Below are positions 8,580 to 29,734 of a stretch of 43,358 nt of DNA, piece by piece; the stretch's first letter is position 1; the number at the start of each line of letters is the position of its first letter. The DNA comes from a virus, in the IMG/VR virus record IMGVR_UViG_3300042695_000821, positions 1-43,358 of that record; one strand, given 5' to 3'. The notes under the pieces are model-generated. The model did no database searches, was not told the DNA's origin, and saw only the letters and a program-made list of their open reading frames with translations. The position numbers and the translations under genes are program-made.

Positions 8580-8606
8580 ATGATACGCACTTAACGGGGA
8601 AGAATT

Positions 8607-9242
8607 ATGTTTTTACTATTTAAATCAATAACTCCTGATATGTGGTATACGGCTGGATTTGCGCTGGTATCATTTATTGTTGGAATAAGTTTTTCGTTAT
8701 TGAACGTTTTTCAAAAAAGAAAAACACATAAATTATTTACCAATTCGGAAAAAGATTTTACAAAAATACACACTCAAGTAAATGAAGTTTTGACAGAACT
8801 TAGATTGCAATTAGATTGTGCAAGAGTTTATATTTCACAATTTCATAATGGTGGAGATTTTTTTAGTGGAGAGAGTATTTTAAAGTTTTCAATAACGCAT
8901 GAATCATGTTCCCTAGGTGTCGCACAAACTATAGATCAACAGCAAGGTGTTTTGCTTACAAGATTTGTAGAAAAATTAAAAATTCTACAAGAAGATGAAC
9001 CAAGAATAATATTTACAAACACTTTGATTGATAGTCACTTTAAAGGATTTATGGAATCAAGAAACACTATTGCTTTTATTCTTGTTCCAATGAAAAAACA
9101 CAACACAATTTCTCCTTTCGGTTATATTTGTTGTGAATGGTGCTCTTGGAACCACGCAGAAAGCATAAATCCAAATAAAACAATAGATCATTTGGAAAAA
9201 GATGTACGAATACTTAACACCCTATTAATAAAACATGGCTAA
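8607..9242 (+). CDS. membrane-anchored GAF-like protein inside the baseplate operon
   Basis: This 211-aa protein has one clear N-terminal membrane segment (about residues 13-36, WYTAGFALVSFIVGISFSLL), then a basic stretch (QKRKTHK). A soluble domain starts at about residue 50. Its core RVYISQFHNGGDFFSGESILKFSITHE (residues 73-99) carries the FHNGG motif that I recall from phage and bacterial proteins with a GAF-like fold. A later segment with FILVPMKK and FGYICCEWC fits the closing strands of such a domain. GAF domains usually bind small molecules, but no ligand residues can be assigned. It lies between the spike and gp25 and overlaps gp25 by 8 bases, so it is made with the baseplate. It might be an inner-membrane sensor or lysis-control protein; its role is unknown. 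Confidence 0.6.
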   Translation: MFLLFKSITPDMWYTAGFALVSFIVGISFSLLNVFQKRKTHKLFTNSEKDFTKIHTQVNEVLTELRLQLDCARVYISQFHNGGDFFSGESILKFSITHESCSLGVAQTIDQQQGVLLTRFVEKLKILQEDEPRIIFTNTLIDSHFKGFMESRNTIAFILVPMKKHNTISPFGYICCEWCSWNHAESINPNKTIDHLEKDVRILNTLLIKHG

Positions 9243-9636
9243 AACCAATTTAAATATAACCGACATAAGTAACGATTTTACCAGTAATCCTGTTACCGGC
9301 GACATATCAATTAAAAAGAATATCGATGCTATAAAGCAATCTCTTAAAAATTTGATGCTAATGAAAAGATTTGATAAACCCTTTGATCCTAAAATTGATG
9401 TAGGATTAAATGAGGTTTTATTTGAAAATTTCCCAGATCCAATTTTAAAAGACATTATTTCTAAAAAAATTGAATATATAATTTCAGTATATGAACCCAG
9501 AATCAAGTTGCAAAAAGTAGAAGTTGAAAGTTTATATGAAAAAAATTTACTGCAAATTGATATAACGTTTTCTTTAAGAAACCAAGCATCAGAAGAATTG
9601 CAAAACTTGCAAATAAATCTTGAGAGGATCAGATGA
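9235..9636 (+). CDS. 25: baseplate wedge protein gp25-like
   Basis: The protein is 133 aa, almost exactly the T4 gp25 length (132 aa). The family hallmark EPR motif is present as YEPRIKL (Glu87-Pro88-Arg89), preceded by the typical helix with KNIDAIKQSLKNLMLMKRFDKPFDP. gp25 holds the inner baseplate core together with gp6 and gp7 and nucleates the sheath. Despite the old name gp25-like lysozyme, it is structural. The start lies within the end of the GAF-like gene and has no strong ribosome binding site, so coupling is likely. The stop overlaps gp6 by 4 bases. Confidence 0.9.
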   Translation: MAKTNLNITDISNDFTSNPVTGDISIKKNIDAIKQSLKNLMLMKRFDKPFDPKIDVGLNEVLFENFPDPILKDIISKKIEYIISVYEPRIKLQKVEVESLYEKNLLQIDITFSLRNQASEELQNLQINLERIR

Positions 9637-11525
9637 AACCAGATTTTTCAAAATTAGACTATAGCGACATTAAACAGAATTTAATAACTTTTCTAAAGTC
9701 GCAAGATAAATTTAATTCCTATAATTTTGAGGGATCTACATTAAACATTCTTTTAGACATACTGGCATATAACACACATTACCAATCATTATACAATAAC
9801 ATAACATTTAATGAAGCTTTTTTGGACACGGCTCAAAAAAGATCATCCGTAGTTTCAATTGCTAAAAATTTAGGATATACTCCCGAATCTTCACGATCAG
9901 CAACATGTGCGGTAGAAGTTTTAATTGATGCAAATTCTAATGGTGGATTGTCTTCTTATACAATACCAAAAAATACAGCATTTAAAGTTAACAAAGATAA
10001 TAGTGTTTATTATTTTTACAACTTAAATGATGCGGTTTATACTCCCAATACTTACAATGAAACCACTGGTTTAGTGGAAACTTATACAACAGGTAGTATA
10101 GTTTTAAAAGAAGGTACGTTTAAAACCGTAAATTTTGTGATAAATGGTTCCAATCCAACACAAAAAATAACTTTAAGAAGTACTAATATCGACACAAATA
10201 CAATTTCCGTAAGAGTACAAAATTCTACAAGTGATTCTTCAGGCATAAATGATGTTTGGGAAGAAGCAAAAAATATGGTAATGGTTGACGGTTCTTCTAA
10301 AGTATATTTTCTAGAAGAGGGACCAGATGAGAACTATAGAATATATTTTGGAGATGGTATAATAGGACAATCTTTAAATGAAGGTAATTTAGTAATAATT
10401 ACATTTTTAGAAACTAATGGGGAAGAAGCAAACGAAATAGGAGTAAATGATGAAGAAGGTGCAAGAGTATTTACTTCTCCATCTCTACCAAATACAACAG
10501 TTATAGTGAGAACTCCATCATATGGTGGTTCAAGTCGTGAAACCACTCAATCTATTAAATACAAAGCACCAAAGGCATTTAGTACTCAAGAGCGTGCCGT
10601 AACTGCTGACGATTATTCTATAGTCTTGCAAAATGATTTTTCTTTTATCAAATCTATAAAATGTTGGGGAGGAGAAGATAATACACCACCCGCTTATGGA
10701 AAGATCTTTATATCAATAAAACCAGAAAACAGAGCAGCACTTTCAAACACAGAAAAAAATGCTATATTGCGTTCTCTGACAAAAAATAGAGCAGTTGTAG
10801 GAATAATACCAGAATTAGTAGATCCCAATTTGATTTATTTAATAATCAATTGTGATGCTAAAGTCGATATCATTAAAACAAATGGCTCAATTGAAAGTCT
10901 TAAGACTAAAATAATCAGTGCAATAAATGAATACATTCAAACAAATTTGGATGTTTTTGATGCAGATTTGATAGTAAATGAATTGGAAAATACTATTAAA
11001 AATACTGACACTTCTTTGTTAAGTGTTACTGTCACTCCCCAACTAGAATACAGATTAACTCCTGTTTATGGAACGGCTGTAGATTACACTATTAATTTCC
11101 AAAATGAAATAGTCAAAAGTGATAGTATTGATAAACCAAATATAAAGTCTTCAAGATTCAACTATTACGATTATCAAAATAACATAAGACTTTGCAGAAT
11201 ATATGATAATGGTTCTGGTAAATTATATCTTGCTTTTGAAAATGGTAATAAAGAATATAGCATTGGGAAATTTTCAAACATAGATTTAACCGAAAATGCA
11301 CCAGAATATATTGGTAGTATAGATTATGAAACTGGTATTTTATCTCTTACAAAATTTAAACCACAAATTAATGAAGAAAATAACCCATTTATAAAGTTTT
11401 TTGCTAACGTAGTAGATTCTGATGTGTTTGTAAATCCTGATACAATTTTAACAATAGATAGTGATGATCCTAATTCTGTTGTTATCAACTTGACAGAAAC
11501 TGCTTATAGAAAACCAATTAAATGA
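9633..11525 (+). CDS. 6: baseplate wedge protein gp6-like
   Basis: The protein is 630 aa, against 660 aa in T4 gp6. The N-terminus has the conserved helical domain: DFSKLDYSDIKQNLITFLKSQ, NFEGSTLNILLDILAYNTHYQSLYNN, and then FLDTAQKRSSVVSIAKNLGYTP. The middle has AVTADDYSIVLQNDF and IKCWGGEDNTPPAYGKIFISIKP, which match the gpJ/gp6-type region shared with P2-like baseplates. gp6 dimers form the inner ring of the wedges and bind gp25, gp7 and gp53. GAGG before the ATG and a 4-base ATGA overlap with gp25 support the start. A further 4-base overlap joins it to the gp7-like gene. Confidence 0.9.
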   Translation: MKPDFSKLDYSDIKQNLITFLKSQDKFNSYNFEGSTLNILLDILAYNTHYQSLYNNITFNEAFLDTAQKRSSVVSIAKNLGYTPESSRSATCAVEVLIDANSNGGLSSYTIPKNTAFKVNKDNSVYYFYNLNDAVYTPNTYNETTGLVETYTTGSIVLKEGTFKTVNFVINGSNPTQKITLRSTNIDTNTISVRVQNSTSDSSGINDVWEEAKNMVMVDGSSKVYFLEEGPDENYRIYFGDGIIGQSLNEGNLVIITFLETNGEEANEIGVNDEEGARVFTSPSLPNTTVIVRTPSYGGSSRETTQSIKYKAPKAFSTQERAVTADDYSIVLQNDFSFIKSIKCWGGEDNTPPAYGKIFISIKPENRAALSNTEKNAILRSLTKNRAVVGIIPELVDPNLIYLIINCDAKVDIIKTNGSIESLKTKIISAINEYIQTNLDVFDADLIVNELENTIKNTDTSLLSVTVTPQLEYRLTPVYGTAVDYTINFQNEIVKSDSIDKPNIKSSRFNYYDYQNNIRLCRIYDNGSGKLYLAFENGNKEYSIGKFSNIDLTENAPEYIGSIDYETGILSLTKFKPQINEENNPFIKFFANVVDSDVFVNPDTILTIDSDDPNSVVINLTETAYRKPIK

Positions 11526-13381
11526 TCGAATTAAAGATTAAAACTCCGGTCGCAAATGATATAGTTTTTTCGGATTTAGTAACTATAAATTACGAAGTGC
11601 GAGATACTGATGGTTTGTTTTCAACTGTAGTTTTTGAAATCGGCAATTCGGTTTATGAAAAAACTAATAGAGTAGATTTATTTAATGTAACTTTGACTGA
11701 AGGTAATCACGTTTTAACTTGCTATATTAGAAACAAATATGGCAAAGAATTACCAAATACTAGAAAAACAATATATTTTTCAACAAAACCTATTACGTTA
11801 GAATTAAAAAATCAATTATCTTCTGTAGTAAGTGCTACTATACCTGATTTCTTGCAATATGAATATGGTGTATTTGTAGAATTTGTTAAAGAATATTATA
11901 GATGGATGGAATTAAGTAAAAATGTAAATTACATTCCACACTCTATTGAACAATTCTTGGATGTAGATACTGTTCCACCAGAGTTAATTGATAAATTTTA
12001 TGAAACATATCTTGCAGTTTTTCCTAAAAAATTTGCAACAGACAAGGAAACTGGAAACAAAGTTGATATTACAAAAATTATAAAAAGAATTAGAGATTTT
12101 TATAAAAGAAAAGGAACCGAAGATTCTTTTAGATTTTTGTTTAGATTGATGTTTGATGCGGAAATAACTCTTTCATATCCTAGAGAAAAAATTATAACAG
12201 CATCACAAGGGAAATGGGTAGTACCAACATTTATAAGAATACAAAATTTAACAGAAGATAACTGTGGATTTTTAATTGGTAAAGAGATTTATGGTCTTGA
12301 TGCAAATGGTAATAAGTCTTTCTTTGCAGTAGTAGAAGATGTTTCATTTTTCTTTGGTACTGGAAGAAACGTAACAACTGCTCATTTAAGTGACGTATAT
12401 GGTCAATTGACAGATTCTTCAGTATTCTATGACGAAGTTGTTGAAGGAATAACACAACAAGTAGAATTAAAATTGTTTTCTATGATAGTTGGAACAGAAT
12501 TAAATACATGCGAAAATGCACTAGGTTATGGAAAATACGATTTCAAATATGGAGATAAACTGATACTAAGTGGTTATGGTAGTACTACAAAATATACATG
12601 CAGTGGATGTGTTCAAAATGTAGAGTATCCAGAAATTGTCATTAAAGCACTCGGTAGTGGATTTAGAGGAATTGTGGAAAGTGTTAGCGAATTGGGTGAA
12701 ATATTAAAAGTTAAAATATTAGATCCGGGATACGATTACACAGAAACCAATATAAGTTACTACACAACACAATTAAATAATCCACACCCAGAAAACGAAA
12801 ATAACCCAGGTCCTCAATTATCATATGATTGTAGGATATCATACCAAACTGGCTATTTGTTTAAAGATGAAGGTCGTTATTCTACAAAAAAATCACTATT
12901 ATCTGAAATTGCAATACTTCCCGACAATTTTTACTATCAACAAAATTCTTATGAAATAGGATCTTCAATAACTCCTCTTTCATATTCAGAAATATTAAAA
13001 CAAACAGTACACCCTGCCGGATATAAACCATTTTATCGATATGATGTTTTAGATTTACTGCAAGAAAGTCGAGATCTGTTCGCTGCTACATCTACTCCAA
13101 GTATTAGACCAATAAAACCAAAACCAGATCCATTTTCTGGAAGAGTTGTAAACGCAGAAATAATTCGAGAAAGTGATAGAATATTTACTAGTGCCGATAG
13201 GATTGGCGAATCTGAACCTGTTTTGAGATTTTTACAAGAAGTAATTATACCAACCGAACCAACGACGGATGATAATCCCACAGATTACAGCCCAGAAACA
13301 GGACCATCTACCGATTCCATTATAGATATAATACCAGAATACGCTCCATATAGAGCAGAGCCTTTACTTTACGACTTATAA
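11522..13381 (+). CDS. 7: baseplate wedge protein gp7-like with an N-terminal Ig-like domain
   Basis: This 619-aa protein follows gp6 as in T4, where gp7 is 1032 aa. Residues about 1-90 look like an Ig-like beta-sandwich (IKTPVANDIVFSDLVTINYEV, then GNHVLTCYIRNKYGKE). Residues about 105-230 match the gp7-type helical core of cyanophage-like phages: YGVFVEFVKEYYRWME, DTVPPELIDKF, FPKKFATDKETG, IIKRIRDFYKRKGTEDSFRFLF and YPREKIITASQGKW. The C-terminal part is beta-rich and ends in a Pro/Thr-rich acidic tail. gp7 spans the wedge and forms a heterotrimer with two gp6. The short length suggests that the T4 peripheral domains are missing. The neighbouring giant protein may attach here, but that is inference. 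Confidence 0.75.
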   Translation: MIELKIKTPVANDIVFSDLVTINYEVRDTDGLFSTVVFEIGNSVYEKTNRVDLFNVTLTEGNHVLTCYIRNKYGKELPNTRKTIYFSTKPITLELKNQLSSVVSATIPDFLQYEYGVFVEFVKEYYRWMELSKNVNYIPHSIEQFLDVDTVPPELIDKFYETYLAVFPKKFATDKETGNKVDITKIIKRIRDFYKRKGTEDSFRFLFRLMFDAEITLSYPREKIITASQGKWVVPTFIRIQNLTEDNCGFLIGKEIYGLDANGNKSFFAVVEDVSFFFGTGRNVTTAHLSDVYGQLTDSSVFYDEVVEGITQQVELKLFSMIVGTELNTCENALGYGKYDFKYGDKLILSGYGSTTKYTCSGCVQNVEYPEIVIKALGSGFRGIVESVSELGEILKVKILDPGYDYTETNISYYTTQLNNPHPENENNPGPQLSYDCRISYQTGYLFKDEGRYSTKKSLLSEIAILPDNFYYQQNSYEIGSSITPLSYSEILKQTVHPAGYKPFYRYDVLDLLQESRDLFAATSTPSIRPIKPKPDPFSGRVVNAEIIRESDRIFTSADRIGESEPVLRFLQEVIIPTEPTTDDNPTDYSPETGPSTDSIIDIIPEYAPYRAEPLLYDL

Positions 13382-13383
13382 TT

Positions 13384-16300
13384 ATGCCAAATATTAATTC
13401 TAATATTCAAAAACAATCTGTTCAGGGTTTCTTGGGTTCATTTTTAAATAACCCAAATAATATTTTTAATCAAGCATTGGGTTCTTTGCCAGATGCACCA
13501 CCAACACCAACGGATGAAGTGCAACAAGAAACCGATAACACAGTAAATCCTGATCCAGTTTTGTTTATTATTACTGGTGAATCTAATGCTGGTGGATTTG
13601 CTTACAATGGTAGTGCATTGGCATCAGAATTAAATCAAAGAAATAATGTTCAAATATTAAACAACAATAATTTGACTTTTGAATCTTTGAGATTTGGATT
13701 TAATGGTAATAACTTCTTAGGTCATCTTCCACAACCACCATACGCAGATGTAACTGATGCTTCATATTGGAACGCATATCCGTGGGGCACAACAGCAGTT
13801 GGTGGATATCCACATGGCTTTGAATTGGGATTTGCTAATGAAGTTGATAGTGGATATTTTGGAAATAGTGAAGTTTATTTGTGCAAAGTTGCAATGGGTG
13901 GTTCTACTGTTTTTGATTGGGATACCGACAGTAATACTACAACTGGTTATTGGGAAAAATTTGTTGAAAGAGTAGATGCAGCAAAAGCACAAGTTGGTGC
14001 ATCTGCAAATATTTTTATATGTTTAACGATTGGTATTAATGACGCATATGCGTTTGACAGAGCACATGCTCCCGGAAATTTGTACGAAAATGGTAAAATT
14101 AAACAATGGGTAGATACTGGTATTTGGGAAGATCCATTTACTGAAGAAGATATTGAGAGTTGGAAAACTCAAATGCGTGCTCATTTCACAAACATGAGAA
14201 ATGCAGTTGGTTTTAATGCTCCAATTCTTATTACTTATTTAATGGATAGAGTTCCAATTTTCCAAAAATTTAATGTGGCAATTGGTGAACTTGCAAATGA
14301 GGATAATCTTTTATATTGGGTAAAAACTTCAGATGCTTCATTAAATGCAGATTCTATCTGGAATAATACTGTAAACTTTAGAAATAAAGACTTTGTGCAT
14401 TGGGATTATTCTGGAATGAAATTAATTGCTTCCAGATTCACATATCTTGCAACAGAAGTATTTGGATTAAACGATCAATATGATCAAAGTTTAATAAATC
14501 CACCAGCACAAGATGAAGCAGATTTATCGACAAACATAGATGCCGCAGACTATGAAGTATTTGCCGCCGCATGGATACGTGAGGTTGATGAAAATGCAAC
14601 TTCTGTTGTTCCTATGATTTGGGTCGATAATATGGGTGGATGGGTTGGTACTACGACCACTGATAATGAGGCTTGGACCAATGAATATGTTAGTGCTATA
14701 AATTATACAAATTTTAAAAATAAGTTATTAGAAGTTCCACAAGGTAGAAGAGTATTACAAACAACTTTTTGGTCAGCAGCACCAGTAAATGTAAATTGGA
14801 GTCCTTTAACTTATATTGATTACTATGCAGATCTTGAAGGAATAAGCGTAAACAATACAAATTTAAAGTATCCAGATTTTACACAATCACAAAAACTACC
14901 ATTTTCAGCATGGCACGAAAACATAATAGCAGATGCTAAAACTAGTGTAAATCAATTCTTTGCTCGTTGTGCTGCGGATGGATTGTCTTTTGATTACATT
15001 ACTGACAACTCAATATACACAGATGGAGCAAATCCAAATATTTGGACAATAAGCCAACAACAAGCTATAGGAACTTGTGGTGGTAATGCAACTTATAACA
15101 TTTACGTTTCTGTAAATGATGGAAACGATTCTTGGAGTGGCGAAAACCCAAGTGTTGGTGGACTAACAGGACCAGTTAAAACACTACAAAAAGCAGCCGA
15201 TTTAGCAAAAAATTATACCGGTCCATTAAATATTGAAATTCGTATAAGAGGTGGTACTTATAAAATTTTAGGTACATCTTCTAATCCAGTTTTCTATTTA
15301 AACGAATCTTATAGTGGAACAAACGGAAGAACAATAACTTATAAACCATATAAAAATGAAGAAGTTATAATTTCTGGTGACGAAGAAATTGCTTGGACGG
15401 AATTTACTGCGTTAAATTCTTCAGATCCACTGTGGAGTCGTCTGGCCCATAATCCAACTGCTCAGGCGAATGTATATGTTGCTGACGTTACTGATTATGA
15501 TTTGGGTCAATATCCTCCAGCATGGCGAGGAATGCCACAAGCAACAAGTGGTTATAAAACGGGATTGACTGGTGTGCCTGGTGGACAAGCAGCCGAAATG
15601 TGGTCGGGACAACCAGCAGTTCCAGATTTAATATACAACGATACAGCAATGACTGTATCTCGTTGGCCAAAGAAAACATCTTTTTCTGGCTATTCTTTTG
15701 ATGAATGTGCTCACATAGAAAATTTAAGTACTGCAATCATTGATACAGGCACCGAAGGTGTTTGTTGGAATGATCCCGTTGCCTGTGCATCAAAACGTCA
15801 AGGCAAATTTAAATATGAATGTTTTCATGAAAATTATCATGATGTAATCTCTAGATGGGCAGTTAATTCTGGAACAGATGAACAACCATTTGATGACATT
15901 TATTTGTTTGGATTTTGGAGATTTGAATGGGCAGAAGAAACATTCAAATTAGTAAATATTGATTTGGATGACAGAGAATTTACAGTAAGATCTCAAAATT
16001 CACATTATACAATAACTAATACTCATTATTGTTATTCTGGTTCAGATTTGGGTCGCGGTTATGCAAATCCTACACCAAGAAGATGGTATGCGTTTAACGT
16101 TCCAACCGAAATAGGACCAGGTGAATATTATATTGATAGAACTAACAAAAAGTTATATTTCTATCCTCCAACTGCTCTATCTTCCAGTAGTAAAATTAGT
16201 TTAACTCATAGAGCTTTAACTGGACCGGGTTCCATTTATTTCCAATCTCATGATGTAATTCAATCAGAACATCAACATTATGGTTCTGATCCAAATCATC

Positions 16301-19300
16301 CAAACAATACATTTAAATATCCGGGATGGGTAAATTCTCCATTGGGTTGGGATAGTAATGGTGGTGGAACACAATCCAGAGATATAATGAATAATAAAGA
16401 CGTAATTCACTCTTTATTTAAATTGTATAAAGTAAAAAACGTCAACATTGTTGGATTAACTTTTAAAAACTGTGCTGGAAGTGCCATTGATACTCAATTG
16501 TGTGAAAATATTAATATAAAACAATGCAAAATATACAACATGAAATTGGATGGAATTTGTTCTCAAGGTGGTATTAATGTTGTTATAGATTCGTGTGATG
16601 TCCATGATGTTATGATGAATGGTATAGTAAATACTGGTGGTAATCCACAAACTCTAGAACCCGCAAACAATGTTGTTACCAAATGCAGAATCCAAAGATA
16701 TGGAATTTCTGCACCATCTGCATGTGCAGGTGTGATTATAAACGGTGTAGGTAATACAGCATCAAAGAATTTATTTAAAGATGGTGCAAGAGCAGTACAA
16801 CTTCAAGGCTCAAAGAATATAGTTGAATACAATCATTTTTATGAATTATTAAAAGATCAAGAAGATTATGGTGTTGTTTATGGTGGAGGAGATGTTCTTA
16901 CTTTTGGTAGTAAGATCCGTTACAATTTCTTTAATACCTGTGGCAGTAGATTGCCGGGTGGAAGAGAATGGTACAATAAATATGATACGACAGACCCGTT
17001 TCCATATGGTTGCCGCGATCAACAACATCAATTATCTGTTGGTGTTTATTCTGATGCCTATCAATCTGGTTGGGAAATATTTGGTAATGTATTTTATAAT
17101 CACGGTTTACCTTCTTCTTTAGCACCAGATGGCCCAGTTGTACAGGGTTGGTGTGTGAATATAGGAGGTGGTCCAAGAAATTCAATTGAAAACAATATTT
17201 TTATCAATTCCACTGGTTCTCAAACTAATTCCGCGGCTGGCTCATTTATAGTTAATCCAGCATTAACTAATTTTAATTACCTATACAAAGATTTAGAGTG
17301 GACTTATTTAAATCCAAATAATATTGTATATCAACCATTTGGTTATACCGATGGACCAGCAAGAGGATATAATTTTTGGAATTATTTAGCATCACACGGA
17401 CTTAATAGATGGAATGATGGTGTTGGTTTTACTACAACTGTCGATATAACAAATGCAGCATATACGGAACAAGCACCTTGGATCGCCGGTGATGTTAAAA
17501 TTGAAACTATCAACGGTGTAAGAACGTTTACTGGATTTAAAGATGTACAACAGTACGCTAATTTGAAAGCAACAGTAAAAAACAATGTATTAATTAATCA
17601 CTATGGATTTATTAATGGTAAGTCTATAATATTAAATATGACAAATTCAAACGGTGGAACATATCCAAATATGGATACAAATCCACCAACAGGTGGGTTT
17701 GATGTAACAAATACTGTAACTTTTGCCAATTTGGAAACATTTGCCGGATTTACTAATCCATCAACTAGTAATTTTAAATTAACATCAAATGGATTGACTA
17801 AGATTCGTGAACAAATACCGCAATTCACAGATATTAATTTTGATCTGATTCCATCTTCGAGTTATGTTCCACAGGCTTATGTTGCACAAACCGAAAATTA
17901 TGCTTGCAATTTGAGACACTATACTGGTACTGTGGATTTTGCAAATCCAAATATTTTAGAAAGTATAGTAACAGATCCTCGTTTTACAACTACAGTAAAT
18001 CCAGTTAATGGAAAAACTTTAGAACAAGATTTTATGGATCGTTACGAATATTGTGTTACTAAAAATAACACAACAGATAGAACAATATATCCATATTATT
18101 CTACATCTTGGTATAATTCAGCAGAACCAAATGCATATGATGCATTTGCTCCTATGTTTGGTTGGTTGTATTCTGCACAACCAGAATATGATATGGAAGT
18201 TCCACCGTGGGGCACTTCAAGTAATAATGCTGCCACACGCGCATGGACCGCAGTATTGACCGACTGGGGTAATTTATATTACAGACTAGAACTATTTAAA
18301 GATCCATTAGTTGATAATGGTTTTACAAATGTTAAAATTTCTTTGGATGGACATTATCCTGTCAGTGAAACTGAAATGGAATTTATGGATATGGACAACT
18401 TGTGGATTGAAGCCCCAAGAGAAGATAGTGCAGATTCAATGATTGCACCACACATATATGCTGAGTTGGGTACTACTGCGTTTAATTTATATGGTTATAA
18501 GATCAATCCAGAAAATGATGATCAAAAATATAAATTTGCAAAACTTCCACAAGGTGTTGCGGTAGAAGGATTCGAACGATATACATCTCCAGCATGGTTA
18601 GCATTTTTAATCGATATGAAACGTATTCGTGGAGTTATAAATTCCAGCGAAACCGCATGGCAAAGATTGACTCCGTGGTTAATTAGTAAAAAGTGGTGCG
18701 TCGCTGAGAGATTTAGATTCTGTGCAGCAAATGGTGGCGAATACGCAGATGCCTATTGGAAAGAAGCAGTATTTCATGCATGTTTACATGGTACTCTCTA
18801 TTTTAACTATTTTAATTACGATAAATCAGATACTTTAGATTTACATGAAGTACTTGATGAGTGGAGAGAAAACTCAAATAACAGTAGAGTGCAGCCAGTA
18901 GTAAAAACAAAAATTCCAGTAAATACTAGTGTATTTGTTTCTGGTGGTAAATTATTAAATTCAAACAGATACTTGTGGAGATTAACTGCCAAACCTTCAA
19001 CATCAGTTACTTTGAGAGCATTTGGTAGTAGTACAACTAGAAGTGATATACCACAAACAATAACACTAGATGCAAATAGCAGAGGAGCTTGGTTATTAAC
19101 TGCCAGTTCTGTGCCTCCAATTTATATTTTAGATGAAGGTGGACAACAAGAAACAGTAGATTTAGAATATGTTACAATGATAGATACAAATTTTACCACA
19201 TTCCTACACAAGAATAAAGCAATGGGTGGAGGAGCAAACCATGACTATGGTAGTGGTATTGGATTAGATGCTCAAGGCAAATCTATTTCTCCTATAAATT

Positions 19301-22300
19301 ATTTGTACGAAAGTGGTCAAACAGTATCGTTGCTTTTGGGAGCTAATCTAAATTGGATGTATGAAGACAATTATAGATTAGATAGCAATGGACAAGCAAT
19401 AAGAGTAATAAAAAATATAACTCCAACACAATCTGTTACTCTTTGCACAGATCCTTGCTACCAAACAGCCGCTTGTTATCAATCTCCTAGATTGGTTGAT
19501 TCCGTTTTTTCCGAAATGATGTCAATTGATGGTGAATGGGGTCCAGCATTAAGACAAAATGATCCATTCCCAAATAACAATGGAAGCAGAAATTACGATT
19601 ATATTACTATAAATGAACAAGTATTTACTGCTCAACCTTATGATCCAAATAAACCTATAGATTATTCTTACGATTATTTTGGAAATTATGTAATTGAAAG
19701 TACACAAATACCAGCAAGTTTCTGGGTAAGAAGTACCACTCAAAACGGAAGACCAGATTTAGCATATAATTACGACGAACAAGGAACACTGGGTAATTCA
19801 ACAAATTATTCTTCAGTTGCAACAGGTTGGTCGCCAGTATTATTCTGGACAACGGAGGATGGAACCTTAAAATGGTCAACAACTATTCCGGTGTATTCTG
19901 GTTATAATTTAATTCCTCCAACAGAGTATCAATCTTTAAAGTATAAACAAATAACTGTTGGTTATGGACAAGTATACGGTTTAACTACAAATGACACAAT
20001 TGTTGGTTGGGGTGGAGATGGTAGTGTAAAAAGAAATACAGAATTCTTCATGCAACAATTGAGATATATGCAACGATCTGGTGAAAAATTACACGAAGTA
20101 AAAATAAAGAAGATTGCTGCTGGTGCAGGACATTGCAATGTTCTGATGGAAAATGGTGAATTGTTTGTATTTGGAGGAAATGAAGGAGCACAATTGAGCG
20201 ATCCAAACACAGTTTGGACACCAATTGGATTGATTCCACTTCCAGTTGTTAATGATGCTCTTTATATTACAAATCCGGTTCCTTATACCTATTACAAATA
20301 CGAACAAGATAAGTCATCTTATTTGGTTTCATTTGGTAGTTCTGAAAATGTCGGTACAAGTAATGCATGTGTACCAACACCAGTGGGTAGTATAAAATAT
20401 AGATTGTTTAGAAACAATTTGTTAGGTTGTGATATACATGAAGGCACGCCAAATGGTAGATATGATACTCCTTATGTGAGAGGAACATCTTCATATCCGA
20501 ACGATACATATCCACCAACTGGAAGTGCTGCTTGGAGTGGGTTGATTGATTGGTCCACCCATACTGGTGCTCCATATGATTATCAATTCTCTAGAGCAAC
20601 CGTAGGAAATCAAGACAGTCCAAACTATAGTTTAAATGGTTCTTGGACAAGAAGTGATAGACGTTTGCCAATGGTTCAAGCAAGCGGAGGAACTTCTTTA
20701 GGATATACTAATGCTGCTGGGCAACAAATTCCAAATTCTCTATTCGGTACTTCTGGAAACAAATATACAGATGTTGTTGCCGGACGAACGCACACAATTG
20801 CATTAACACAAAATGGAAATATAGAAACTTGGGGTTGGAACTGGTATTACACAATAACCGGAAGTGGTCCTCATGATGGATCTTTGGGTTGGAATAGAGT
20901 TGGTGCGGGTAATCCAAATGCAGATTCAGACTCAGATCCAATCACAAAAGCAGCACCATATGGATATAATACAGCCCCCGCAGTAAAATTGCTTAAAACC
21001 ACTTTGGGTTCAGTTAAAGCAATTGGTGCTGGTTATTATACAAATCAAGTCATAAAAAATGACGGTAGTGTATTTGCTTGGGACAGAAATGAATGGGGAG
21101 AATCTTTACCGTTCTTCAATTCAGACGAAACTGCTGGTCTACCAACAGGCAAATTTAAACAAATTTGTGGTTCCTATCACCACACAATCGCACTCCGTGA
21201 AGATGGAACAGTTGTATGTTGGGGTGAAAACAGATATGGAGAATGTGATGTGCCGGCTTCATTAAAGAATGTAAATACGGCAGATTGTGTATGGATTGGT
21301 AGTTGCGCTTACGTTTCTTTGGCTCTAAAGAGAAACGGCGATTTGATTGCATGGGGTAGAGTAACCGATTTGAAGGCTGGTGCGGTTTCTGGACAAAAAC
21401 TTTTAGATGAAAAAATATTCCTAAATCAAAATAGTCCATTTGTTCTGGGTTATGAATATCCAGTAAAACACTCAAATCTTTCTTTAGAAATTAAGAGTGC
21501 AAACGATGCGCCTCATGTAAGAAATGAGCCAGGAAATATGTTTAAATACACCGGATTCTTATTTGCTCCGGTGAGAAAAGACGATGGATGTGCAGATCAC
21601 GTTTATTTCTCGTTGTTCCAAAAAATGTTGGAAAACGAAAAAGAAATGGCAGATTATCAATATTTTGTAAATAATTTACCAAACGTGCCTTCTTGTGTTC
21701 TACAAAGTTCTGCTTGGAATAATTATCATGCAGATGAGTATGTAAACGGAGAATATAGACCAAAATATGTTTTAGTAAATTATGAAGCAGAATTGGTAGA
21801 TCAAATAAGATCCGTCAATGCAACCGGCAGAAAAGTTCTTGCAGATGGAACAAAAGCATATGTTACAATTGAAGGTCAACCCATAAATGAAAATCTATGG
21901 CAAAGAGTTGTTTCATATGTAAAATTAACAAGAAAAATGAACCATTACATACGTCAAGTGTTTGGTAATCAAGCAAACATTGCACACTATGACATGTATG
22001 CTGTTCCATTCTATCAAGATTGGAAGGGCGGTGGACAATGGTATCCCAATAATGGAATACTATTCAGTCAAGAGTATCAAGTAACAGAATGTGCGTATTG
22101 TGATGAATTGTTACCAGATTATCCTGGTCATGCTGTATATAATAATCTACCAAATAGTGAAAAATTAATTTGGATTGAAAAGGCAGTCAAAGCACTTCAA
22201 GATAAAGTGTTTAGAATGGCAAAAGCAATATCAAAAATGTGTTTGTTTGAAAATGCTGAAGGTGAACCCGATACTTTAGATTTAAGAGAAGATTTATCTA

Positions 22301-25300
22301 GTTTAATGCCTCAAATCGATCCAAGTAATTTTATCATAACAGGATTAAACCATTATCCAAATTCAGTTCATGGTGCTTTGGCAACCAATACACACAAGTA
22401 TTACACTTGCACAAGTAATGGTTTTAACACAACAGCACAAGTTGAATCATTAAATGATGCGGAATCAAATAGAAGTAGAGAAATGTCGATTCACTTTAAA
22501 GAACAAGGAAGAGTTGGTTTATTCAATAATCAACGTTCCGGTAAATTCTTTTCACCGTTCGTGCAAGGAGTGTGTGGTTCTGACGTTGCGGAATCCTTCT
22601 ACGAATTTTACAGTTCCAGTGATCCAAATAATGCTGGTTATAAAAAATCTTGGACAAGTTTTAGATTTGACGCCCAAGAAATATCAACATTACCAACCAC
22701 AACAACTAATCCATCACATCCCGCTGGAACAAGAATTTATACAAATAAATCATCACCAAAGAGTGGTTTAAGAAGAAGTTTTGCATTAGACTTCCCAATA
22801 ATTAGCATCAATAATGATTTGTGTGCTAAATTGAATCTAAATTCTGCTATAAAGCAAAAAGACGAAATAATTTGGTCAGATAATACTACTTCAAATTATG
22901 TTGCAACTAAATTGAATTATATGATAACTGCAACAGAAGGTATTTACGAACAACCAAGACCATGTGCTCAAAACGAAACGCCACATGCTGGTTGCCGAGA
23001 TATTGTAAATAATCCCTATGTAAAACCAACAATATTTGATCATACAACAAAAATAAGAAAAAATGATTATGATACTTTCCAATGCAGTACAAATCCTGGC
23101 AATAGTGATTACAGTCCAAATTGTAAAAATTATTGTTATGCTAATCCAGTAACTCCAGACAGAGGTGCTGCATCGATATTGAGTATACTTTCCACCAGAA
23201 AAATAGCATATGAACTTGCTGTGGAATATGCAAGTTATGATGATATGGTCGCAGTGCCCTACGAGGACTTAACTAATGATCCATATTGGACTGGATACTA
23301 TGGTAAATTTGCTCGTTTTGATCCATTTATAACAGAACCTCCGGCCACAATTCAAGAAGCGTCAAATTATGCAAATTACGATGATACAACATGGCCCAAT
23401 ATTAGACTATCAGAAACTGCAAAACGTGTCCAAGGTCTTTCTATAATATTGAGTTTCCGTAAAGATGGATCGTTGCATAAATTTATGAAAAACCAAGAGC
23501 AAACTCACATTAGAGATTGGCCTCAACCACCGGCACAATTTAATGTAGATCGTAGACCTGGAGTAGCGTGTACTTTACCAGTTGCTGGTGGAAATAACAC
23601 ATACTTGTCGTTTACAGGAGACAACCAAAATGCAAATGCATTGTGGGTGAAGGATACCGGTATACAAAAAATTATAGAAAATTATTTAGAATATAATTAT
23701 AATAGAGGATATAGAAGATTCTTAGTTTGGGTTCCATGTGGTTATTCAACTACATATGGACCAGGATATACTTCAGCAATAACTTCTGCAATGAAGCACA
23801 GAGTGTATACTGGTGGTATTATCAATCCATCCGAAGCATGTTGGCATGGTAATAATCTTCCAATAGATCCTGCAACTGGTCTAAGAATACCACAAACGGT
23901 TCAGCAAGCACAAAGCACAACACTAACATTTAATGAAAACGGAAGATTGAATGAATGGTTAACTCAGTTAGGTGCTTGGATTGCTGCACACCCACAAGCG
24001 GATGTTGGCTTGTATATCGGATATGCAATACCAACATTAAACGGTACACCAGTTGGTGATATTGGAATTAGTGGGGATCTTGGAAATGGTTCTTCTGGAC
24101 AAAATGCACAATCTGGTAGAGGATGGCAAACTCCAAATCCAGCGAATAATGCAATTCACGCACAATTCTTAAGAAATGAATTACAACCTTGGATTGATAT
24201 TGGAATTAATTTCTTAGCGATAGATGCTGGACCTGGAATGTTTAATTATGAAAATGGTGGTAGTGTATCGTATGGACCAAATGCTGCGTCAAGACAAGCC
24301 GTAGGTGACTACAAGGCTTGGTTGATTGAAGAGTTTGGTTTAAAGACAGTAATGGCAGAAGCCCTTGCTATCGATCCAAGAGCACCAATATTAGATGAAT
24401 TTAATAAAGTTGCAAATACTAGTTATCCAAGAAAAACATTAATGAAAATTGATCTAACTGAGGAAATTTGTAAGGGAACTGCTGTTCCTTCACAAAGTGA
24501 GGCAGGAGATCCTTTCAATACAGTATATACCGACGATTGTTGGTACAATAAAGGTAGAGAGAGATATAGAAAACTAGATGCTAGTGGAAAAGATTATAGA
24601 ACAGAATCAGGTGATCCTAATGATTTAGTTTATTCTTCTGGTGCTTATCAATACTGTCCTTATTTAATTTTGTTAAACGGTTACTTAAATCAAGGAGAGT
24701 GGAATATTGGAAAAGAAAATGAAAGTGGAATAGGAGGATTTGCTGGTCTAGATCCAAATAATATGTTCTCTTGGTATAGAAGAAACACTGAAATAGGAGT
24801 AATTGTAGAAAATTACTACTTATTAAGTTCAGAATTGCGTAAAGTTTATAGAGATAATTTTACAAATTGGCAAGGTTACGGAAGATTGTGGGAAACTTCT
24901 CCAGCATGGCACGATCAAGGACTTGCCACACCAACAGCAGCAGTAAGTTCTTCTAATCTAATTGGTCCACACGACGGCAGACAACACACAAGAGATTCTG
25001 AATTCTACAATAGAGTTAGAAATGAAATTTTTGCAAAAATTAAAAACTATATTGATAGAGGTTACGTCTACTGGGCGTCCATAGGAAAACTTGATGGACA
25101 ACTGAATAAAGATGTGGATCAAGATGTAAGAACTTATGTTGATGCTGTAGAAATTGACTATGGCAGTTATGCTCAAGATGAAATAACAGAAAATGAGCAA
25201 CCACCACAAAGAATTTACAACACAAATTCACCAAATAAATATGCAGCAGATGAAATCTTGTTTGAAAATTTCATAAATACATCAACAAGTACTGACGAAA

Positions 25301-25314
25301 GCACAGAGGGTTAA
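13384..25314 (+). CDS. giant multidomain tail protein (esterase-like, beta-helix, RCC1 propeller, glycosidase-like regions)
   Basis: This is one uninterrupted 3976-codon frame (roughly 440 kDa) between gp7 and gp8. Residues 1-57 are a Pro/Asn-rich leader, perhaps the baseplate anchor. Residues about 58-370 look like an SGNH/sialate-esterase domain: Ser67 in GESNAGG, GGS near 178, GIND (217-220), and Asp336-x-x-His339 in DFVHWD. Residues about 385-565 look glycosidase-like. Residues about 570-1320 contain a right-handed beta-helix, clearest at about 1020-1100. Residues about 1565-1915 again look glycosidase-like with a closing beta domain. Residues about 2190-2663 hold RCC1-type repeats. Residues about 2670-3000 and 3345-3900 resemble further TIM-barrel-like modules (FLVWVPCGY, INFLAIDAGPG). 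It is rich in Trp, Tyr, Asn and Cys. It probably recognises and degrades a surface glycan as a tail spike. Only the esterase triad, beta-helix and RCC1 repeats are reasonably visible; the other enzyme labels are guesses. No ribosome binding site is evident, with the start 3 bases after the gp7 stop. Confidence 0.7.
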   Translation: MPNINSNIQKQSVQGFLGSFLNNPNNIFNQALGSLPDAPPTPTDEVQQETDNTVNPDPVLFIITGESNAGGFAYNGSALASELNQRNNVQILNNNNLTFESLRFGFNGNNFLGHLPQPPYADVTDASYWNAYPWGTTAVGGYPHGFELGFANEVDSGYFGNSEVYLCKVAMGGSTVFDWDTDSNTTTGYWEKFVERVDAAKAQVGASANIFICLTIGINDAYAFDRAHAPGNLYENGKIKQWVDTGIWEDPFTEEDIESWKTQMRAHFTNMRNAVGFNAPILITYLMDRVPIFQKFNVAIGELANEDNLLYWVKTSDASLNADSIWNNTVNFRNKDFVHWDYSGMKLIASRFTYLATEVFGLNDQYDQSLINPPAQDEADLSTNIDAADYEVFAAAWIREVDENATSVVPMIWVDNMGGWVGTTTTDNEAWTNEYVSAINYTNFKNKLLEVPQGRRVLQTTFWSAAPVNVNWSPLTYIDYYADLEGISVNNTNLKYPDFTQSQKLPFSAWHENIIADAKTSVNQFFARCAADGLSFDYITDNSIYTDGANPNIWTISQQQAIGTCGGNATYNIYVSVNDGNDSWSGENPSVGGLTGPVKTLQKAADLAKNYTGPLNIEIRIRGGTYKILGTSSNPVFYLNESYSGTNGRTITYKPYKNEEVIISGDEEIAWTEFTALNSSDPLWSRLAHNPTAQANVYVADVTDYDLGQYPPAWRGMPQATSGYKTGLTGVPGGQAAEMWSGQPAVPDLIYNDTAMTVSRWPKKTSFSGYSFDECAHIENLSTAIIDTGTEGVCWNDPVACASKRQGKFKYECFHENYHDVISRWAVNSGTDEQPFDDIYLFGFWRFEWAEETFKLVNIDLDDREFTVRSQNSHYTITNTHYCYSGSDLGRGYANPTPRRWYAFNVPTEIGPGEYYIDRTNKKLYFYPPTALSSSSKISLTHRALTGPGSIYFQSHDVIQSEHQHYGSDPNHPNNTFKYPGWVNSPLGWDSNGGGTQSRDIMNNKDVIHSLFKLYKVKNVNIVGLTFKNCAGSAIDTQLCENINIKQCKIYNMKLDGICSQGGINVVIDSCDVHDVMMNGIVNTGGNPQTLEPANNVVTKCRIQRYGISAPSACAGVIINGVGNTASKNLFKDGARAVQLQGSKNIVEYNHFYELLKDQEDYGVVYGGGDVLTFGSKIRYNFFNTCGSRLPGGREWYNKYDTTDPFPYGCRDQQHQLSVGVYSDAYQSGWEIFGNVFYNHGLPSSLAPDGPVVQGWCVNIGGGPRNSIENNIFINSTGSQTNSAAGSFIVNPALTNFNYLYKDLEWTYLNPNNIVYQPFGYTDGPARGYNFWNYLASHGLNRWNDGVGFTTTVDITNAAYTEQAPWIAGDVKIETINGVRTFTGFKDVQQYANLKATVKNNVLINHYGFINGKSIILNMTNSNGGTYPNMDTNPPTGGFDVTNTVTFANLETFAGFTNPSTSNFKLTSNGLTKIREQIPQFTDINFDLIPSSSYVPQAYVAQTENYACNLRHYTGTVDFANPNILESIVTDPRFTTTVNPVNGKTLEQDFMDRYEYCVTKNNTTDRTIYPYYSTSWYNSAEPNAYDAFAPMFGWLYSAQPEYDMEVPPWGTSSNNAATRAWTAVLTDWGNLYYRLELFKDPLVDNGFTNVKISLDGHYPVSETEMEFMDMDNLWIEAPREDSADSMIAPHIYAELGTTAFNLYGYKINPENDDQKYKFAKLPQGVAVEGFERYTSPAWLAFLIDMKRIRGVINSSETAWQRLTPWLISKKWCVAERFRFCAANGGEYADAYWKEAVFHACLHGTLYFNYFNYDKSDTLDLHEVLDEWRENSNNSRVQPVVKTKIPVNTSVFVSGGKLLNSNRYLWRLTAKPSTSVTLRAFGSSTTRSDIPQTITLDANSRGAWLLTASSVPPIYILDEGGQQETVDLEYVTMIDTNFTTFLHKNKAMGGGANHDYGSGIGLDAQGKSISPINYLYESGQTVSLLLGANLNWMYEDNYRLDSNGQAIRVIKNITPTQSVTLCTDPCYQTAACYQSPRLVDSVFSEMMSIDGEWGPALRQNDPFPNNNGSRNYDYITINEQVFTAQPYDPNKPIDYSYDYFGNYVIESTQIPASFWVRSTTQNGRPDLAYNYDEQGTLGNSTNYSSVATGWSPVLFWTTEDGTLKWSTTIPVYSGYNLIPPTEYQSLKYKQITVGYGQVYGLTTNDTIVGWGGDGSVKRNTEFFMQQLRYMQRSGEKLHEVKIKKIAAGAGHCNVLMENGELFVFGGNEGAQLSDPNTVWTPIGLIPLPVVNDALYITNPVPYTYYKYEQDKSSYLVSFGSSENVGTSNACVPTPVGSIKYRLFRNNLLGCDIHEGTPNGRYDTPYVRGTSSYPNDTYPPTGSAAWSGLIDWSTHTGAPYDYQFSRATVGNQDSPNYSLNGSWTRSDRRLPMVQASGGTSLGYTNAAGQQIPNSLFGTSGNKYTDVVAGRTHTIALTQNGNIETWGWNWYYTITGSGPHDGSLGWNRVGAGNPNADSDSDPITKAAPYGYNTAPAVKLLKTTLGSVKAIGAGYYTNQVIKNDGSVFAWDRNEWGESLPFFNSDETAGLPTGKFKQICGSYHHTIALREDGTVVCWGENRYGECDVPASLKNVNTADCVWIGSCAYVSLALKRNGDLIAWGRVTDLKAGAVSGQKLLDEKIFLNQNSPFVLGYEYPVKHSNLSLEIKSANDAPHVRNEPGNMFKYTGFLFAPVRKDDGCADHVYFSLFQKMLENEKEMADYQYFVNNLPNVPSCVLQSSAWNNYHADEYVNGEYRPKYVLVNYEAELVDQIRSVNATGRKVLADGTKAYVTIEGQPINENLWQRVVSYVKLTRKMNHYIRQVFGNQANIAHYDMYAVPFYQDWKGGGQWYPNNGILFSQEYQVTECAYCDELLPDYPGHAVYNNLPNSEKLIWIEKAVKALQDKVFRMAKAISKMCLFENAEGEPDTLDLREDLSSLMPQIDPSNFIITGLNHYPNSVHGALATNTHKYYTCTSNGFNTTAQVESLNDAESNRSREMSIHFKEQGRVGLFNNQRSGKFFSPFVQGVCGSDVAESFYEFYSSSDPNNAGYKKSWTSFRFDAQEISTLPTTTTNPSHPAGTRIYTNKSSPKSGLRRSFALDFPIISINNDLCAKLNLNSAIKQKDEIIWSDNTTSNYVATKLNYMITATEGIYEQPRPCAQNETPHAGCRDIVNNPYVKPTIFDHTTKIRKNDYDTFQCSTNPGNSDYSPNCKNYCYANPVTPDRGAASILSILSTRKIAYELAVEYASYDDMVAVPYEDLTNDPYWTGYYGKFARFDPFITEPPATIQEASNYANYDDTTWPNIRLSETAKRVQGLSIILSFRKDGSLHKFMKNQEQTHIRDWPQPPAQFNVDRRPGVACTLPVAGGNNTYLSFTGDNQNANALWVKDTGIQKIIENYLEYNYNRGYRRFLVWVPCGYSTTYGPGYTSAITSAMKHRVYTGGIINPSEACWHGNNLPIDPATGLRIPQTVQQAQSTTLTFNENGRLNEWLTQLGAWIAAHPQADVGLYIGYAIPTLNGTPVGDIGISGDLGNGSSGQNAQSGRGWQTPNPANNAIHAQFLRNELQPWIDIGINFLAIDAGPGMFNYENGGSVSYGPNAASRQAVGDYKAWLIEEFGLKTVMAEALAIDPRAPILDEFNKVANTSYPRKTLMKIDLTEEICKGTAVPSQSEAGDPFNTVYTDDCWYNKGRERYRKLDASGKDYRTESGDPNDLVYSSGAYQYCPYLILLNGYLNQGEWNIGKENESGIGGFAGLDPNNMFSWYRRNTEIGVIVENYYLLSSELRKVYRDNFTNWQGYGRLWETSPAWHDQGLATPTAAVSSSNLIGPHDGRQHTRDSEFYNRVRNEIFAKIKNYIDRGYVYWASIGKLDGQLNKDVDQDVRTYVDAVEIDYGSYAQDEITENEQPPQRIYNTNSPNKYAADEILFENFINTSTSTDESTEG
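19951..21358 (+). repeat. RCC1-type propeller repeats within the giant tail protein
   Basis: At least six copies of the RCC1 pattern (small/Gly-Ala-Gly, His or Tyr, then ALxxDGxVxxWG) are visible. Examples are AAGAGHCNVLMENGELFVFG, VVAGRTHTIALTQNGNIETW, AIGAGYYTNQVIKNDGSVFA, ICGSYHHTIALREDGTVVCW and SCAYVSLALKRNGDLIAWG. An earlier copy ends TNDTIVGWGGDG. Spacing is irregular because of long insertions between copies two and three. Confidence 0.75.
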
Positions 25315-25315: not shown

Positions 25316-27754
25316 ATGTCAAATTTCAGACAAAGAGGAAGAGAAAATAATGCTAAAGTATTTTTGAATGATTTTAATCAATCAAAAAGCAGTTCGTATT
25401 TTGTTTCTATTGGTAATGCTGTAACTTCTTCTACAGCATCCTCTTCCCGATTTGCGGATTGTGTGGAAACAGATCAGTATACTTGGGATAATATGTTTGT
25501 TATGAATGAAATATTCAGAACAGATGTATCATTAATGATTAAAAAAATAGATTGGATTTCTGGAACGCGGTATGAGGCTTTCGATAAAAGCAAAAATCAA
25601 TATGAATTAAATGAAAAGTTTTATGCATATAATAACACCAACAACAGTGTTTATTTGTGTCTTGCTAGTCCAGAAAACGAAAATGCATTTAGTACATATG
25701 CTCCAACAAGCGAAACCATAGAACCAGAAATAAAACAAGATGGTTATACGTGGAAGTTTTTGTATAAATTAAGTGATATTGATTTGGAAAAATTTGATTA
25801 TCCGGGATTTATACCAGTTAAAGAAATAGGAACTGATCTCTATACAGATGAACGAATTTTACAACAAAATGTACAAGCAAATACAATCAGAGGTGCGGTT
25901 GAAGCAATTGATGTTGTTGTGCAAGGAAGCGCATACAATGGAGCAGTAAACGCAAATTTTGAAAATGCATTTTATGCAATACAAAGTGTGGTGCAAGAAA
26001 CAGGTGAAGATGGTACAGTAAGTCTTTCAGTAATAGTAGATGATGCTTTGCAAGAATTAAATAAAACACAAAATTTTTACAAAGACAAATATGTAATTAA
26101 TTTTGAAAATGGATATACTGCGGTATTGGATGGAAGTGGATTCAATAATAATGGAGATTTCCAAATTGACATTTGTACGGATCAAATAGTTCAATTTGGT
26201 CCAACTGGAACACTACCACCAACTACAGTACAATTTAGAATTTTACCAGCAATTAAAATAATTGGTAATGGTAATGACGCTTGGGCTATTCCTACATTAG
26301 ATGCTGCTAAAAAATTAACAAAGATTAAAATGTTAAAAATTGGATCTAATTATAGTTATGCAGAAGCAAGAATATTAGTCTCAAATGGTACAGTCTTAAA
26401 ACCAATCATTGGTTTAAATGGTCTAACTTCAGATATTACTCAAATATTAGGCGCAAAGCATGTTATGATTTCTAAAAAAATCAAACCAGTAACAACTTTG
26501 TCGGAAAGTGATCCAGTAATTTATTCTTTACCGGAAAATATAGGATTAGTATATGAGGGACCTCAGTATAAAAATGTAATAACACCAAATACATTTTATA
26601 CTCAACTTGCATTAATTAAAAGTCCAAAAATTCTAAATGAAGATAATTTAGAAGAAATCGCAGGAACACAAATAATAGAAGTTAGAGAAATGGTTTTGGA
26701 TGCTATTAATCCCAAAATAACAATTACAATAGGAACAGCACAAAATCCATATGTCAATCCTAATGATTTTTTTGAAGTAAATGATATTATTGTTAGAGGA
26801 CCCGATAATCTTCCAGATCAATTTAGAGCAAAAATAACGGATGTAATGGTAACAGGTTTCAGTACAATATTGGTTTGTGATTTGATCAACGGCGCATTTG
26901 AAACATATTCTGGTTATAAGATTAAAAACTTAAAAGAAACTACTGAAACTATAGATGATTCATTTTTTATATTTTTAGATTGTGACAATAATTGTTCAAA
27001 AGCAATAAAAGTTCAATATGAAAATACGTTTTTACAAACCGATTTTATTAATGATGATTCGGTTTATGGTACGGTAAGTTATGAAACGGCTGAAATAAAA
27101 CAACCATTAACTGGTTATGCATATGTAAATCCACTATATCCAACAAAAGCAAAAATAAAAGTAAATAATCCGGGAACAGGATTTATACCAGCAAGATATG
27201 AAGATGGTGAATATATCCCCGGTGAAATTATAACTTCTATAGTAACTGTGGAAAATCAAACTAGAGCAGTAACAAGAGGGACTTTGGTTTCTATAAGCGA
27301 TCCCATAGAATATATTGGAGAACAAACTTTAGGTTATTCTTATATTTTGGAGTGTGTAATTGATAGAGATGGGATAGATACTGCTTTTGAATTAGTGAAT
27401 TCTGATAATATCTCACTGGAAACCAATACATTAATTCGTCAAGGAACAACAGGTTCTTTAGGAAAAATAATAAGAGTTGGAATTCCTTCCGGTACTGGGG
27501 ATGCAAACATAGTCTATTTGTATGTAAATAATTACAATGGTCCATTTTATGCGGATGGACAAACTAAAATTTACAAAATAAATAGTTTATATGAACCAAC
27601 TGAATATGTTGATATGAAAATGACCGTACAAAATATACTTTACCAACCAAAGTTAGTGCGTTACTCTGGTAATTTGTTATATATAAATGATGTAGGGCCT
27701 GTGCAACGTAAGTTGGAAAATACAGAAAATATCAAACTATTAGTGGAGTTCTGA
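25316..27754 (+). CDS. 8: baseplate wedge protein gp8-like, C-terminally extended
   Basis: This 812-aa protein is far longer than T4 gp8 (334 aa). The N-terminal 170 residues carry the gp8 pattern: NDFNQSKSSSYFVSIGNAV, FVMNEIFRTDVSLMIKKIDW, YEAFDKS, then NSVYLCLASPEN-AFSTYAPTSE and QDGYTWKFLYKLSDIDLEKF. In T4, gp8 is a dimeric wedge component that binds gp10 and gp7. The remaining 600 residues are beta-rich, with Gly/Asn turns and repeated NPGTGF-like or GSNYSYAEARI-like motifs of the kind seen in phage baseplate extensions. GAGGG sits just before the ATG and within the end of the giant gene. The next gene begins 7 bases after the stop. The extension probably gives the fibre attachment surface; this is inferred. 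Confidence 0.8.
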   Translation: MSNFRQRGRENNAKVFLNDFNQSKSSSYFVSIGNAVTSSTASSSRFADCVETDQYTWDNMFVMNEIFRTDVSLMIKKIDWISGTRYEAFDKSKNQYELNEKFYAYNNTNNSVYLCLASPENENAFSTYAPTSETIEPEIKQDGYTWKFLYKLSDIDLEKFDYPGFIPVKEIGTDLYTDERILQQNVQANTIRGAVEAIDVVVQGSAYNGAVNANFENAFYAIQSVVQETGEDGTVSLSVIVDDALQELNKTQNFYKDKYVINFENGYTAVLDGSGFNNNGDFQIDICTDQIVQFGPTGTLPPTTVQFRILPAIKIIGNGNDAWAIPTLDAAKKLTKIKMLKIGSNYSYAEARILVSNGTVLKPIIGLNGLTSDITQILGAKHVMISKKIKPVTTLSESDPVIYSLPENIGLVYEGPQYKNVITPNTFYTQLALIKSPKILNEDNLEEIAGTQIIEVREMVLDAINPKITITIGTAQNPYVNPNDFFEVNDIIVRGPDNLPDQFRAKITDVMVTGFSTILVCDLINGAFETYSGYKIKNLKETTETIDDSFFIFLDCDNNCSKAIKVQYENTFLQTDFINDDSVYGTVSYETAEIKQPLTGYAYVNPLYPTKAKIKVNNPGTGFIPARYEDGEYIPGEIITSIVTVENQTRAVTRGTLVSISDPIEYIGEQTLGYSYILECVIDRDGIDTAFELVNSDNISLETNTLIRQGTTGSLGKIIRVGIPSGTGDANIVYLYVNNYNGPFYADGQTKIYKINSLYEPTEYVDMKMTVQNILYQPKLVRYSGNLLYINDVGPVQRKLENTENIKLLVEF

Positions 27755-29714: not shown

Positions 29715-29734
29715 TTTACATATAAAGGGTAAAA

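Follow-up and report, generated by a model that had tools for sequence, protein, structure and literature searches.

Among the baseplate wedge genes of the virus IMGVR_UViG_3300042695_000821 lies a single open reading frame of 3976 codons, and we consider it probable that its product is a baseplate-associated protein acting at the host surface, where it would bind and degrade polysaccharide by means of modules that are swapped among phages. The window, by which we mean the whole stretch of 43,358 nt that was analysed, carries this frame at positions 13384-25314 of the + strand, 2 bp past the stop codon of a gp7-like gene and 1 bp ahead of a gp8-like one, a position which suggests a role in the baseplate. 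In T4, gp7 (1032 aa) overlaps gp8, which agrees with the claim of an earlier sequence-only reading that T4 has nothing between these two genes, where this phage places one chain of 3976 residues. To call the chain inserted is apt in comparison with T4, but does not describe the clade, as the giant gene follows gp7 in each IMG/VR locus of the clade where the contig reaches that far; it is not a one-off insert but a gene that this uncultured T4-like clade has conserved. The features of the region are as follows, with the evidence for each in brackets.

9235-9636, +: gp25 baseplate wedge subunit, context (phrog_261, E 1.5e-32)
9633-11525, +: gp6 baseplate wedge subunit, context (phrog_219, E 1e-146; tblastn)
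11522-13381, +: compact gp7-like baseplate wedge protein, 619 aa (PF23786; profile comparison)
13384-25314, +: giant mosaic protein, 3976 aa (one ORF; copies at 100% in L001, 88% in L002, about 45% in L036/L059)
13384-13548, +: N-terminal anchor, residues 1-55, then a Pro/Thr-rich linker (conserved in relatives)
13549-14436, +: SGNH/SASA-type carbohydrate O-acetylesterase domain (EST), residues 56-351 (PF03629, motifs)
14521-15081, +: S1, residues 380-566, first part of a beta/alpha-patterned domain, ending FDYITDN (in all relatives)
15091-17403, +: right-handed beta-helix (BH), residues 570-1340, with GH141-like features (PF13229, PDB 9rx2)
17404-17883, +: S12, residues 1341-1500, same cassette as the beta-helix (co-occurrence with BH)
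17896-19791, +: S2, residues 1505-2136, second part of the domain interrupted by BH and S12 (10-sequence alignment)
19792-21447, +: RCC1-type beta-propeller module, residues 2137-2688 (PF13540, PDB)
21448-22713, +: S3, residues 2689-3110, backbone (module table)
22714-23553, +: S4, residues 3111-3390, backbone (site of the split and protease motifs in L059/L060)
23554-25197, +: S5, residues 3391-3938, C-terminal backbone domain, beta/alpha-like pattern (insert site in L036)
25316-27754, +: gp8-like baseplate wedge subunit, 812 aa, context (phrog_438, E 6e-46)

The giant gene and its neighbours

An assembly artefact or a chance open frame was considered and excluded, because a second metagenome has a contig (L001) with a 100% identical gene, because the frame stays open for 3120 codons, up to the contig end, in a relative of 88% identity (L002), and because the codon comparison of the window with this relative gave dN/dS values of 0.05-0.16 for each module tested over residues 1-3126. 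Such ratios indicate that all the modules in this range are under purifying selection. The comparison stops at residue 3126, where L002 ends, and the final ~850 residues of the chain, which lie outside it, show 46-55% identity in L036.

On the 5' side, gp6 is 60-90% identical within the clade and about 30-34% identical to the gp6 of cyanophage, pelagiphage and Caulobacter phage; in L068 the gp6 homologue (3222-5037) is present as two overlapping ORFs of 469 and 143 aa, possibly from a frameshift or an assembly error. The gp7-like ORF scores 41.4 bits against the Baseplate_wedge family PF23786 (cut-off 27), and its family profile matches the gp7 of Cr30, Melnitz and cyanophages at E 1e-38 to 2e-17, and that of T4 weakly (E 1e-6). 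On the 3' side, the gp8 profile matches the gp8 of Cr30, HTVC008M and P-HM2, and weakly that of T4; the gp8-like protein of the window is 812 aa long versus 334 in T4, and the profile matches at both of its ends and leaves a large middle part unmatched. Further downstream, two ORFs of 650 and 1956 aa (27762-35605) match phrog_358 at 8-322 and 520-1597 of 2056, and it appears from these matches that the VrlC-like protein of marine T4-like phages is split into two genes here. They are followed by two ORFs with neither a PHROG nor a Pfam match (35800-40476, 1558 aa; 40481-42856, 791 aa), the second of which opens with a 'VRDSSGNPQEIS'-like unit in three near-repeats.

The size and place of the giant chain had been presented as unusual by the sequence-only reading, and this was overstated, as cyanophages are already known to encode giants in the gp6-gp8 interval, namely P-HM2 gp7 (4454 aa), Bellamy gp111 (4067 aa), the S-WAM2 protein (about 3446 aa) and S-PM2 p084 (3048 aa); the same interval holds 1016 aa in HTVC008M, 896 aa in Melnitz, 767 aa in Cr30 and a 3.0-kb gene in phiM12. 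The cyanophage proteins, known as giant gp7 or "baseplate wedge initiator", are like ours huge and multi-domain; those of Bellamy and P-HM2 have YHYH domains, and that of P-HM2 also has a carbohydrate-binding module that scores below threshold. The gp7 and the giant of the window might then be the two products of a split giant gp7 of this lineage, with the decoration now on a separate chain. The shared interval and the length of the cyanophage proteins (3048-4454 aa) would agree with such an origin, as would the fact that the two halves of the gp7 profile lie far apart in them (30-286 and 2613-2662 in P-HM2; 6-278 and 1635-1931 in S-PM2). The compact 619-aa gp7 of the window, however, contains both halves (93-300 and 390-588), the giant's profile gave nothing significant against the gp7 of P-HM2, Bellamy and S-PM2 (best E 0.6), and tblastn with the backbone gave no cyanophage match; we regard this origin as very unlikely, and as largely refuted by the sequence comparisons. 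The identification of the giant chain itself as gp7, or as a fusion with giant gp7, was likewise rejected, as the gp7 profile lies in the neighbouring 619-aa ORF and the giant's own profile has no significant match to gp7 proteins. While cyanophages expanded gp7 from within, the window carries a compact, complete gp7 and a separate giant with its own anchor. The new finding, then, is that an uncultured clade has a giant distinct from gp7, on whose conserved backbone the modules are exchangeable.

It has been reported that VrlC, a large protein adjoining gp8 in the baseplate operons of marine T4-like phages, replaces gp7 in cyano- and pelagimyophages (PMC7029224). Contrary to that report, our profile matches suggest that a core of gp7 has been kept in the gp6-gp8 interval, with VrlC encoded 3' of gp8. 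VrlC is a different gene and not to be taken for the giant described here.

Modules and backbone of the chain

The N-terminal residues 1-41 are common to all the relatives despite the different modules that follow, and the anchor could be found in L002, L012, L036, L037, L059, L060, L068 and L069; an alignment over residues 1-38 gave 55% identity. The next three recognisable parts, which had been described as an esterase-like domain, a beta-helix and an RCC1-type propeller, each score above the respective Pfam cut-off, and the mosaic nature of the chain holds in this regard.

For the esterase, residues 53-380 scanned alone reach 31.3 bits against SASA (PF03629), and the corresponding domain of L002 reaches 26.8, with a cut-off of 24.8, whereas just 20.1 bits are obtained when the entire chain is scanned at once. 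Blocks I, II, III and V of the SGNH family are all present (Ser67 in GESN, Gly171-Gly172, Asn219 in GIND, and Asp336-x-x-His339), and these motifs are conserved in L002. In the module table of the relatives, built with iterated profiles, the esterase is confined to the closest relatives of the window and absent from L036, L037, L059, L060, L068 and L069; beyond the immediate relatives, no homologue was found in IMG/VR, nor in 50,697 phage records at E<=1. The domain has its acetyl-esterase type in common with the SGNH/SASA esterases of phage tail spikes such as that of Vi01, and, like them, it likely deacetylates a surface polysaccharide; in Vi01-like phages the esterase domain on the spike is believed to determine which capsule is recognised (PMC10892097). 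The Vi01 esterase, however, sits on a tail spike, while the one described here is one module of a giant chain encoded in the wedge operon.

The beta-helix scores 36.2 bits against PF13229 (cut-off 25.9), a family also matched in L036, L059, L066 and L068, and its profile matches PDB 9rx2 at E 1.7e-12; the domain also matches a Paenibacillus surface protein at E 3e-14 over 705 residues; the helix of L036 matches 9rx2 in three colinear pieces (E 1e-15). The insertion-domain signature GH141_M is weak in L036, L059, L066 and L068 (13.9-17.3 bits versus a cut-off of 27, always at the same end of the profile) and absent in the window, and the helix is called GH141-like here and not a GH141 member. 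Unlike the polysaccharide-active beta-helix proteins (9rx2, GH141-like) that it resembles, it sits as an insert within another domain. S12 adjoins it in the window, L036, L059, L060 and L066, and both are missing at that site in L068/L069. Phage depolymerases usually adopt a beta-helix or a propeller fold, and rarely a TIM barrel (PMC11326577).

The RCC1 module scores 84 bits against PF13540 (cut-off 22) in three stretches, and in the PDB it matches BLIP-II at E 9e-16 and UVR8 at E 2e-11. It has the RCC1 repeats of these propellers, and the phage version differs from them in its length of about 550 aa, in a conserved extra TGAPxDYQFSR segment between blades and in moving among phage proteins. 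Relatives at 31-53% identity occur in 14 IMG/VR loci besides the window gene (L057) and its 88% relative (L058). The carriers comprise stand-alone proteins (L006/L062, L064), multi-domain chains (L007, L063, L065, L061, L066) and the giant's own clade, and the unrelated phage proteins among them are L006, L007, L061 and L063-L066. As an aside, L007 comes from a T4-like contig in which a 1514-aa ORF (4951-9495) lies between the gene for the major head protein and that for the tail tube; its RCC1 part is 40% identical, and its C-terminal part, common to L063/L065, resembles by eye a heparinase-type lyase, with no Pfam match.

The remaining segments, S1-S5, whose sequences look beta/alpha-like by eye, form a backbone with no supported Pfam or PDB match, S2 having been tested with a 10-sequence profile in which D70, E195 and H199 are invariant (numbering of that alignment, A10). 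"Several glycosidase-like regions" had been proposed in the sequence-only reading, a claim which finds no such match in S1, S2 or S5; neither S1+S2 nor S5 matched a glycosidase family or a solved-structure profile that would indicate a TIM-barrel glycosidase, and the PDB values near E 0.2-0.6 in the searches with S1, S2 and S5 are at the level of chance. AlphaFold2 predictions from 6-row alignments of low sequence depth gave a pLDDT of 28 for residues 2689-3888 and of 26 for residues 940-2139. For most of the backbone no homologue was detected among the 50,697 phage records, and a screen of 84,980 prokaryote genomes that required short exact peptides gave no cellular homologue of S2 or S5; the S2 versions of L061 and L066 had no phage homologue either. 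These last two, which are unrelated giant phage proteins, carry an S1-related stretch directly 5' of the S2 core (hhalign E 2e-5, probability 77%). With S1 and S2 contiguous there, and interrupted at the same point by BH and S12 in the window or by RCC1 in L068/L069, there is moderate evidence, from a target profile of two sequences, that S1 and S2 are one domain that receives different cassettes at one site.

An NCBIfam scan of the whole chain gave no match. Neither BLAST nor hhalign between segments found internal repeats, which argues that the chain is not one repeated fold, the finding that the sequence-only reading had named as incompatible with its proposal.

Exchange of modules among relatives

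Comparison of relatives for domain swapping, also proposed in that reading, showed that the modules differ in set and order among the loci of the clade:

Window and L002: anchor-EST-S1-BH-S12-S2-RCC1-S3(-S4-S5)
L036: anchor-S1-BH-S12-S2-S3-S4-S5, with a 320-aa insert within S5
L059/L060: anchor-S1-BH-S12-S2-RCC1-S3-S4a; a second ORF holds ~294 extra residues, then S4b-S5
L068/L069: anchor-S1-RCC1-S2-S3a; in L068 BH then follows

The RCC1 module is cleanly missing in L036/L037 and relocated in L068/L069, and the matches of its closer relatives end near the ends of the segment missing from L036; the beta-helix is relocated in L068. The insert in S5 of L036 repeats ISTDGGxTF, and a profile that includes it matches PDB 4lgn at E 0.0014; we read it as an Asp-box/BNR propeller. 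Where the chain splits in L059 (11361-12242) and L060 (ORF start at 11349), the motifs LACxHYF and GDSGSP are found, and the ~294-residue segment is read, from these motifs, as a trypsin-like serine protease. Pfam is silent on it, and the one plasmid match of the L059 segment, by name an S1 family peptidase, was not significant (E 0.7). As the chain is made of two ORFs in L059/L060, an intact single chain is not essential. In L037 (2764-13425, - strand, contig G004), the giant homologue has an in-frame stop between the beta-helix and S12, giving ORFs of 1032 and 2496 aa, which may be a mutation, a sequencing error or a natural split.

Proposed role and significance

The position of the gene, the conserved N-terminus followed by varied modules, and the types of these modules all suggest a protein that is attached to the baseplate and serves to bind and trim surface polysaccharide. 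Residues 1-41 would most likely dock the chain to the gp6/gp7/gp8 wedge, and the backbone (S1+S2, S3, S4, S5) would carry plug-in modules at a few fixed sites, with the esterase after the anchor, the beta-helix cassette inside S1-S2 and the RCC1 propeller between S2 and S3. The esterase would probably deacetylate, the helix bind or cleave, and the propeller bind the surface polysaccharide, whose trimming would let the tail reach the membrane; swapping of modules among phages would presumably suit them to different hosts. We thus infer that the chain is a virion component with a docking role, enzymatic activity and a polysaccharide target.

The SGNH fold may lose activity, and RCC1 and beta-helix folds can be purely structural. 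The main rival, in fact, is a purely structural or adhesive extension of the baseplate that replaces the short tail fibre or gp10/gp12 in function and degrades nothing, with the beta-helix, the propeller and an inert SGNH-like fold serving as spacers and receptor binders. The giant gene sits where T4 has gp7-gp8-gp9-gp10, and the profiles of the window's gp7, gp8 and giant protein found no counterpart of T4 gp9, gp10 or gp11; moreover, binding is a common function of RCC1 and Asp-box propellers, and the backbone matched no enzyme family. All four SGNH blocks, however, are intact and conserved, with Ser67 and Asp336/His339 among them, and this speaks for an active esterase; the module with trypsin-like GDSG and His motifs is found in relatives, and the relatives of the beta-helix include a secreted bacterial protein and show weak GH141-like features. 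We therefore hold a purely adhesive role to be rather unlikely.

A free polysaccharide-degrading enzyme, released for instance at lysis and foreign to the virion, might also be envisaged from the resemblance of the SGNH and beta-helix domains to secreted bacterial enzymes. The gene, however, is packed among wedge genes with gaps of 1-2 bp and kept there across the clade, and its N-terminus is conserved independently of the modules, and we find this explanation the most improbable of all.

A baseplate-associated protein that binds and degrades polysaccharide might, more specifically, be a standardised plug-in platform with fixed acceptor sites and exchangeable cassettes that leave docking to the wedge unaltered, a suggestion that we make tentatively and hold at somewhat less than even. 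Its acceptor sites would lie after the anchor, inside S1-S2, at the S2/S3 junction, in S4 and inside S5, and its cassettes would be the esterase, the beta-helix, an RCC1 or Asp-box propeller and the trypsin-like protease. If this were true, a T4-like phage could change its surface-processing tools by cassette exchange while keeping the docking. The sites that are empty in some relatives and filled in others give module boundaries that are open to testing, and the S1-S2 backbone domains represent a family with no supported match to a solved structure. Next to the enlarged gp7 that cyanophages have, the giant gene provides a second route by which T4-like phages place thousands of residues of surface-active modules in the baseplate operon.
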